In this document: positions 6,061-12,564 of the stretch, in pieces | How the letters are laid out: every line of letters starts with the position of its first letter | Numbering within the stretch: the stretch's first letter is position 1 | Translations under genes and position numbers: made by a program | From: a virus | DNA length: 34,729 bases | Virus record (IMG/VR): IMGVR_UViG_3300025759_000312 | Location: 1 to 34,729 of that record | Direction: 5' to 3' (one strand) | The notes under the pieces: generated by a model | What the model saw: the letters and a program-made list of their open reading frames with translations, nothing else | Databases searched by the model: none | What the model was told of the DNA's origin: nothing

Positions 6061-7365
6061 TTATTGATGTAGACCCTGCATGTAACCAAATCTTATTATA
6101 TTTTCAAACACAAAGTCTGCGATTATGTAGAAGTAGACTATTTTAAGCACGTTGTACCCTTTGAAGCACAATCCAAACACAGTGCTCAGTGAGAACACCG
6201 TCACGTACATCCACACGCTCAGCTCTAGATGTGCGAACCAAAACATCAAAAACAGCAAGAACGCCATCAACAGGTAATTGATGTAATGGTAACAACGCGC
6301 GAATATGTTGGATATCACACTGCTCAACGGTCCTGCTATGAAGAACCCACTAATACTGGCGATGGCCACTGTGGGCAACATGACACCTATAAACTGATCA
6401 AAAGATACAGGGCCAAGCAAAAAACTTTTCTGCACTATCATCTCGTAGAGTATGGCCTGTGACGAGCTGGTGGGAAGACCAAACAACAGCAGGGGAAGTA
6501 CTATCGCGAAAGCGGCGGAGTTGTTGCTGGATTCCGCGGCCATCAGATTGAGTTCATTGTCATCATTAAATCTCTTCTGTAGATTGTGCGTGATGTTGCT
6601 GACCACGTCCACGCCCACGCCGGGTATGAAACCCAACACGAATCCGATCACACTGTGTACGACCGCCACAACGGTGTGCCGTATTCTTATACTGATACCT
6701 GACCAATCAAAGGCAGATACTGTGTTTAATTTGTGATCCTGCTGTCTGAGTTCCAATAGTAAAGGGAAGGTGTAGAGTCCCAACAGCAATGGTATGAGCG
6801 GCACACCATATTCCAACGACTGTATGCCAAAGGTGGCAAAGTGAGCGAAGCTATCATCAGGCATTGGTCCTATAATGCCGAGGAAGAGACCTATAGCGGG
6901 GAACCCAAATCTATCAAAGTTGTTCTTGGATCTGGTAAGCAACAGCAACAGTATCACCAAACTCATCAAAAGCAGATTGAAATAGGTGTTGAAGTTTCTA
7001 AATATCTCGTCAAGGTTCTTGCCCAACAGGAAAAGAAACATCAAACTAACAACGCCTCCGATGAAACTGCCATAGGCGCTGATCATGATTGCTTGGCTGG
7101 TTCTGCCTTTTTTGTGGAGCGCGTGGCCGTCCATGGTGGCCGGAATACTGCTAGGTTCCCCAGGTATGCCAAAGTATGTGGCCACCACACTGCCGGTGAA
7201 TTGTGTCGTTATCAAAGCGGCTGTATAAAACGAAACCAAATCAAATACGGTAAACATCGATGCCAGTGGCAGTAAAAGAATGGTGAGAGTCACCATCCCA
7301 ATTCCGGGCAACAGTCCAGCTATTACACCGGACAATATACCGAGTAGTATTACGTCAATGTACAT
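6061..7365 (-). CDS. TctA-like membrane permease of a tripartite tricarboxylate transporter
   Basis: 434 residues, polytopic with roughly 10-11 hydrophobic segments. It has the internal repeat signatures of the TctA family (PF01970): GLLPGIGMVTLTILLLP near the N-terminus and GFIPGVGVDVVSN in the second half, plus YFGIPGEPSSIPATMDGHAL and LLFGLPTSSSQAIL. TctA is usually about 500 residues, so this is shorter at the C-terminus. It would form the transport channel for the TctC-bound carboxylate in the host inner membrane. No TctB gene (small four-helix subunit) is visible in the window. Start at the ATG directly after the stop of the gene above (3 nt gap). Confidence 0.85.
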   Translation of the reverse strand: MYIDVILLGILSGVIAGLLPGIGMVTLTILLLPLASMFTVFDLVSFYTAALITTQFTGSVVATYFGIPGEPSSIPATMDGHALHKKGRTSQAIMISAYGSFIGGVVSLMFLFLLGKNLDEIFRNFNTYFNLLLMSLVILLLLLTRSKNNFDRFGFPAIGLFLGIIGPMPDDSFAHFATFGIQSLEYGVPLIPLLLGLYTFPLLLELRQQDHKLNTVSAFDWSGISIRIRHTVVAVVHSVIGFVLGFIPGVGVDVVSNITHNLQKRFNDDNELNLMAAESSNNSAAFAIVLPLLLFGLPTSSSQAILYEMIVQKSFLLGPVSFDQFIGVMLPTVAIASISGFFIAGPLSSVISNIFARCYHYINYLLMAFLLFLMFWFAHLELSVWMYVTVFSLSTVFGLCFKGYNVLKIVYFYIIADFVFENIIRFGYMQGLHQ

Positions 7366-11970: not shown

Positions 11971-11998
11971 ATTTTATCTATTTCTGCGAAAAAGTCAA
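11971..11998 (-). promoter_or_regulatory. Sigma70-like promoter, leaderless start
   Basis: TTGACT (11998-11993), 16-nt spacer, TAAAAT (11976-11971), then 7 nt to the ATG at 11963. Confidence 0.65.
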
Positions 11999-12015
11999 CC
12001 AAATGGTGACGGGGT

Positions 12016-12045
12016 TTGACATTTTGTCAGAAGTGTGTTTAAATA
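12016..12045 (+). promoter_or_regulatory. Probable promoter of the tmRNA
   Basis: TTGACA (12016-12021), 18-nt spacer, TAAATA (12040-12045), on the plus strand. The -10 also fits the phage late motif, so both host and late polymerase might use it. Transcription would start near 12052, just before the first tmRNA helix strand. Confidence 0.5.
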
Positions 12046-12049
12046 CTGA

Positions 12050-12345
12050 TGTAAATGTTGATTGACACGGAATAAACATTTCGGACGTCGGGGCAGTACC
12101 GACCAGCTCCACCAATTATTACTAGGTGGCTTATGTAAACCCTTCCGGGGCTGACATAGTATCGACGGGTGTGTAAAGGTGTCAGGAGTTTGCCCTGTAG
12201 GCACGAGGTTACGTCCAGTTTTTAAATGCAAACAAAAAAGCATTAGGTTTTGCTGACCTAACAGTTGGCATGACTGAAATGAGATTAGCGGCGTAATAAC
12301 CGTTGATCACGGGGTCTGGCCCACCTGGCAACAGAACGGGCCATA
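12050..12345 (+). ncRNA. ssrA: Circularly permuted (two-piece) tmRNA
   Basis: The gene order is acceptor piece first, coding piece second. The acceptor piece ends at CAGCTCC-ACCA (12104-12114, CCA encoded); its T-stem is GTCGG/CCGAC (12087-12091/12099-12103). A 32-nt spacer follows (12115-12146) and would be removed. The coding piece starts GGGGCTG (12147-12153), which pairs with CAGCTCC over 7 bp including the third-position G-U that specifies alanine, then has the conserved ATCGACGGG. TGACAC (12063-12068) pairs with GTGTCA (12179-12184), joining the pieces as helix P2. The tag frame is at 12228-12299, and a TGGCCC/GGGCCA hairpin (12317-12322/12338-12343) closes the 3' end. Role: frees stalled ribosomes and tags nascent chains. 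End positions are approximate. Confidence 0.88.
12228..12299 (+). other. tmRNA tag reading frame
   Basis: Begins at resume codon GCA (12228-12230) and encodes 22 residues starting ANKKALGFADLT and ending MRLAA, followed by tandem TAA stops (12294-12299). The LAA end is the classic ClpXP/ClpAP degron. The tag is longer than the usual 10-16 residues. Confidence 0.85.
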
Positions 12346-12354
12346 ACTAATAGT

Positions 12355-12564
12355 ATGTTCAAATTGTTTGCAGTCATGTGTTTCCTGGTCAACGGCGCGG
12401 TGGAGTGCACCGGCTACGACGACAGCGAGGGCAAGATATACCAGACTTTATCGGAGTGCGAGCGGGACGCCCAGTACAGGTTCTACGGACTCACGGACAT
12501 ATTCACCCGTTATCAACAGCCTTACGAACAGATCGTCATAGGCTGTGAAGAGATCACTGATTAA
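12355..12564 (+). CDS. Small exported Cys-containing protein next to the tmRNA
   Basis: 69 residues: MFKLFAVMCFLVNGAVECTG, a short signal-like segment, then IYQTLSECERDAQYRF and VIGCEEITD. It is a paralogue of the 11019-11231 protein on the other strand. It begins about 10 nt after the tmRNA and has no own promoter that I can see, so it may be read from the tmRNA transcript. It overlaps the end of the convergent 12561 gene by 4 nt. Confidence 0.65.
   Translation: MFKLFAVMCFLVNGAVECTGYDDSEGKIYQTLSECERDAQYRFYGLTDIFTRYQQPYEQIVIGCEEITD

Follow-up and report, generated by a model that had tools for sequence, protein, structure and literature searches.

An uncultured marine phage carries a complete circularly permuted (two-piece) tmRNA gene of the alphaproteobacterial type, with an extended tag peptide whose core is held almost constant by selection on its amino acids. 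The gene lies on the plus strand at positions 12050-12345 of the window, by which we mean the whole stretch of DNA analysed, a linear virus record of 34,729 bases from IMG/VR (GC content 47%). It is recognized by the Rfam covariance models alpha_tmRNA (RF01849; 113.6 bits, E 1.8e-30) and tmRNA_permuted (RF04321; 103.4 bits), the alpha model being among those that the first-pass annotation had named as the check on its proposal, and both scores lie above the curated cut-offs (50 and 47 bits, respectively). The same gene is called by ARAGORN as tmRNA*, with the tag ANKKALGFADLTVGMTEMRLAA and two stops. The outer ends of the gene are uncertain, with spans of 11993-12345 for alpha_tmRNA and 12019-12387 for ARAGORN. 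The features are as follows:

12016..12044, plus strand: promoter-like element (TTGACA, 16 nt, TTTAAAT), found at the same place in 42 of 42 family members
12050..12114 (5' end approximate), plus strand: acceptor piece with the P2 5' arm, T arm, acceptor 3' strand and encoded CCA, from Rfam alignments, coordinates and covariation
12083-12103, plus strand: T arm within the acceptor piece, from the Rfam alignment and coordinates
12063-12068 and 12179-12184, plus strand: P2 arms TGACAC and GTGTCA, from perfect complementarity
12115..12146, plus strand: intervening sequence, expected to be excised, between the CCA and GGGGCTG
12147..12345 (3' end approximate), plus strand: coding piece with the GGGGCTG acceptor 5' strand, D region, P2 3' arm, pseudoknot region, tag and 3' structures, from ARAGORN, Rfam and coordinates
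12228..12293, plus strand: tag reading frame ANKKALGFADLTVGMTEMRLAA, 22 residues, from ARAGORN, family conservation and selection on codons 5-13
12294..12299, plus strand: stop codons TAA TAA, from the sequence

This arrangement agrees with what had been proposed at first pass. An acceptor piece with an encoded CCA (ending at 12114) precedes the GGGGCTG coding piece (starting at 12147), the seven-pair acceptor stem includes the alanine G-U wobble (G3-U70), the P2 arms match exactly across the two pieces, and the tag frame, which opens at the alanine resume codon GCA, closes with LAA and two stops. By analogy with known permuted tmRNAs, 12115..12146 would be removed by processing. The region ahead of the tag (12186-12227, the pseudoknot region) is conserved. 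Upstream of the gene, the promoter-like element takes the form TTGACA, 15-18 nt, and then TTTAAAT, CTTAAAT or TATAATT in all 42 family members, and that of the window is missing from the list returned by a strict promoter scan.

Pairing was compared across the family. No non-pair was found in the 480 cells formed by seven acceptor and five T-stem pairs in 40 family members, pair changes are seen at six positions of these stems, and acceptor pair 3 is G-U in 40/40. P2 arms taken from the same gene pair over a mean of 6.05 bp, compared with 5.23 when arms are swapped between genes (maximum 5.58 bp in 200 shuffles). Minimum-free-energy folding of the tmRNA yields a weak z-score (-1.40) and no clear answer for the pseudoknot region, so it is the covariance models and covariation that carry the structural argument. 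The tmRNA is a conserved RNA, far beyond a chance match.

The tRNA-like elbow differs among carriers of the same tag, while the stems and G3-U70 are always intact. The T-loop GGCAGTA occurs with one kind of D region, other carriers have TTC-type or TGC-type T-loops, and the D region is one base longer in most carriers with a TTC-type T-loop. T-loop and D region were also seen to vary together among same-tag carriers (locus L123 against window positions 12083-12175; L002, L057, L032 and others). Between the window and L123, identity is 93-98% in the promoter region, P2 5' arm, pseudoknot region, tag and 3' end, and 71% in the T arm. These differences suggest that either the gene recombined internally or the parts of the elbow changed in concert, the tag being retained.

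The tag had been described as longer than usual, and its 22 residues do exceed those of most tags sampled here. SAR11-type tags have nine residues in all 115 ARAGORN-recognised genes from genome loci fetched by the acceptor piece (80 records listed, all Pelagibacterales), those of 30 other Alphaproteobacteria have 10-15 residues and begin with ANDN in every case, and tags on viral contigs sampled via the acceptor piece, regardless of tag, mostly have 9-15. Since known tags range from 8 to 35 residues (PMC8012679), length alone is not new. In contrast to the short, SspB-binding ANDN type of Alphaproteobacteria, ANKKALGFADLTVGMTEMRLAA is long and has no ANDN-like start.

The long tag defines a family with at least 49 distinct sequence contexts, 35 tag DNAs and 29 peptides, in which tag length is 22-25 residues, RLAA is invariant and the consensus is ANK(K/R)ALGFADLTVxxxx(L/M)RLAA; membership is set by the core, so that relatives having lost it fall outside the set. 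Selection was estimated from 13 members reached via the NrdB gene rather than via the tag. For the core ALGFADLTV (codons 5-13), pN is 0.008 and pS 0.29 (pN/pS 0.027), compared with pN/pS values of 0.67 for the linker (codons 14-17) and 0.18 for the LRLAA end. Within the core, third positions are variable at 7 of 9 sites and first and second positions at 1 of 18 (Fisher p 0.0003), chiefly as synonymous CTA/TTA. Since the third positions vary, the core is not constrained chiefly by RNA structure, and the pattern indicates purifying selection on the core's amino acids. No intermediate tags were seen among the NrdB-linked tmRNAs. Such selection indicates that the core matters without telling its purpose. 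The near-unchanged nine-residue core suggests a protein label of the phage's own, used rather than that of the host.

A host origin of the tag was assessed by comparison with host ssrA tags, as the first-pass annotation had recommended; the host tags sampled have 9-15 residues and none contains the core. A pattern search found the long tag in none of 385 class-level and 397 family-level alphaproteobacterial genomes (about 780, few being shared), and tblastn with the 22-residue tag, a short query that detects close matches only, gave no match in isolated phages. A marine MAG, with the label Rickettsiales bacterium isolate MED6, contains two copies. The contigs on which these occur have phage genes in common with the window, and the MAG's own tag is ANDNEMALAA; we therefore rejected a host gene and regard these contigs as phage sequence binned with the MAG, which is a weak pointer to the host. 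On L403, a phage contig in this MAG, an ORF at 730-2184 on the minus strand resembles SufB (Fe-S assembly) by eye. Many SAR11 genomes have exactly the acceptor piece seen in the window's siblings, which is consistent with an alphaproteobacterial source. Thus, of the earlier suggestion that the tmRNA was taken from, or adapted to, such a host, the alphaproteobacterial type and the siblings' acceptor piece speak in favor, but the tag is not a simple host acquisition, since the searched hosts' tags are short and lack the core. The long tag instead looks like a trait of the phage lineage, kept by amino-acid selection.

The source of this contig is an uncultured marine phage of the T4-like kind, of which the 34.7 kb represent a fragment. 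The encoded ribonucleotide reductase belongs to the T4-like type, and NrdB is 66-68% identical to those of its nearest isolates (Pelagibacter phage HTVC008M and marine cyanophages) and 74-96% identical to those of 80 IMG/VR loci. No isolated phage matched the window by megablast or the tmRNA by blastn. The phage belongs to a widespread group of uncultured marine viruses that share the long-tag tmRNA. Elsewhere in the window, a TctA-family membrane protein of a tripartite tricarboxylate transporter (PF01970, 206 bits) is encoded at 6061-7365 on the minus strand, with distant relatives (31-38% identity) in other carrier loci; the gene encodes a host-like nutrient transporter, here carried by a T4-like phage. 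A 69-aa ORF with a signal-peptide-like start (MFKLFAVMCFLVNG) immediately follows the tmRNA on the same strand (12355-12564, plus strand). Relatives of this ORF are found in 34 loci, and it is perhaps co-transcribed with the tmRNA.

Starting from the architecture, pairing, covariation, conserved tag, core selection and absence of SmpB from the contigs, all read directly from the DNA, we consider it probable that the gene yields a functional two-piece tmRNA that has its own promoter, performs ordinary trans-translation and adds a phage-specific degradation signal with a docking core. A precursor would be transcribed from the gene's own promoter and cut by host tRNA-processing enzymes into acceptor and coding pieces, which the acceptor stem and P2 would hold together. 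Host alanyl-tRNA synthetase would charge the RNA via G3-U70, and host SmpB would deliver it to ribosomes that had stalled on broken mRNA. The ribosome would then resume on the tag frame and be freed at the stop codons, giving a product that ends in A-ANKKALGFADLTVGMTEMRLAA. The LAA end would serve ClpXP, and the ALGFADLTV core, at the place of the host's SspB-binding ANDN motif, would dock on another adaptor, an unfoldase or a protease. Transcription, cleavage, charging and ribosome rescue during infection are proposed here from known permuted tmRNAs; the role of the tag as a phage-specific degradation signal with a docking core is put forward with less certainty.

The selection on the core could also be explained if the core were itself a working peptide, delivered by the tmRNA to block a host protease, adaptor or defence factor, or to mark proteins for another fate, rather than mainly for degradation. 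The core is indeed under tighter constraint than the LRLAA end (pN/pS 0.027 vs 0.18), and it has no match elsewhere in the carrier loci, as the tag has none among solved structures. However, the LAA end, of the ClpX type found on ordinary degradation tags, does not vary, and we regard a working peptide as unlikely.

Trans-translation also requires partners, which were sought on the carrier contigs. A search that detects SmpB in a SAR11 genome found none on 14 of these; since all carrier contigs are fragments, the phages may encode an SmpB or adaptor elsewhere. Host SmpB presumably serves the phage tmRNA. No SspB was found on the carrier contigs, and ClpP is present on one only (L410, the IMG/VR contig of L155; 251 bits), where it adjoins ORFs that resemble, by eye, a transporter solute receptor. 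SspB was found in the MED6 MAG, whose tag is of the ANDN type, but in none of 12 SAR11-family genomes (G014, G400-G413), which are possibly incomplete; the same search was positive for 4 of 6 other genomes. The ANDN type is not seen among SAR11 tags. Because ANDN is absent from the phage tag and SspB accompanies the ANDN tag in the MAG but not the tags of the SAR11 family, the phage tag is probably independent of SspB, with the core making another contact. The LAA end fits ClpXP (PMC9382460). A different protease such as Lon might instead read the tag, as for the longer Mollicutes tags, and the longer, Lon-read tag of Mesoplasma florum, ending in NYAFA, provides a precedent (PMC9382460). Mollicute tags lack LAA, however, which is invariant in the phage family, and a SAR11 genome does encode ClpP, making a Lon-type reader less probable still than a working peptide.

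Far less credible is a role mainly as competitor of the host tmRNA, in which the RNA would titrate SmpB like the tRNA-like-domain-only RNA of mycobacteriophage DS6A. That form does inhibit the host tmRNA (PMC4131195, PMC11915505), but the gene described here contains a full tag frame under selection, which would be superfluous in a mere competitor. Least plausible of all is a non-functional relic of a host chromosome, for example from imprecise excision at an ssrA integration site: ssrA is a common integration site and the siblings' acceptor piece equals that of SAR11, yet the gene is complete with intact stems and a conserved promoter-like element, and its tag is under purifying selection across many contigs. 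The complete gene and selected tag led us to judge both of these candidates unlikely.

Extending the probable reading, a functional tmRNA with a phage-specific degradation signal, we suggest with some hesitation that a marine phage lineage evolved its own trans-translation signal, with a core that binds a specific partner (an adaptor of phage or host, a protease, or a host factor that would be disarmed), and that a second group, with the tag ANAFKPEVTVPVSIFADAELVAA, perhaps did so independently. If true, the phage would decide the fate of stalled-ribosome products during infection. The tag would then be a new type of natural degron; it also serves as a marker for a group of marine viruses that are common but uncultured. 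A phage-only, peptide-selected tag makes testable the question of why phages keep tmRNA genes.

The ANAFKPEVTVPVSIFADAELVAA tag resembles that of the window in being long (23 residues), conserved and present in related phages (40 contexts), but it has a different core, and the family has too little synonymous variation to separate RNA from peptide selection. Its carriers include L008, L012, L016, L020, L023 and relatives, and ARAGORN often reports only the last eight residues of the tag, ADAELVAA. Other long tags were also observed: ANENFAPEAFTSLDMSMDRELLAA (24 residues; L028, L030, L045, L053 and L073) resembles a host-type start interrupted by an insertion, and still longer tags, of 29 and 31 residues and ending in NEDFALAA, are predicted on two viral contigs (L207 and L251).

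Two-piece phage tmRNAs are not new as a kind. They were catalogued in 2022, with 53 known in isolated phages by 2021, of which 50 were marine or aquatic (PMC9004378), and a 2025 tmRNA database holds 79 bacteriophage sequences (PMC11915505). No description of this tag family was found in the open-access literature. The ssrA of SAR11 (Pelagibacterales) is permuted and its acceptor-piece sequence recurs unchanged in the window's siblings, but its tags have nine residues (for example ANESYALAA). Pelagibacter phage HTVC008M (KC465899, 145161-145370), the isolate with the closest NrdB, also has a permuted tmRNA (covariance model, 90.6 bits), with a 10-residue tag, ANFNEYALAA. Methylophilales phage Melnitz (MZ577097; PMC9004378) is likewise a marine T4-like phage with an alphaproteobacterial-type permuted tmRNA (113.4 bits), but its tag, ANDNYVPVDYALAA, has 14 residues, is host-like and lacks the core; Melnitz is also reported to have a glutamine riboswitch (PMC9004378). 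The extended ssrA tags of Mollicutes (PMC9382460) share with the phage tag a greater length and have an altered protease specificity, but they are bacterial, end in NYAFA rather than LAA and are unrelated in sequence. The RNA described here therefore belongs to the permuted tmRNA family, and what is new is its extended tag, which is under selection.
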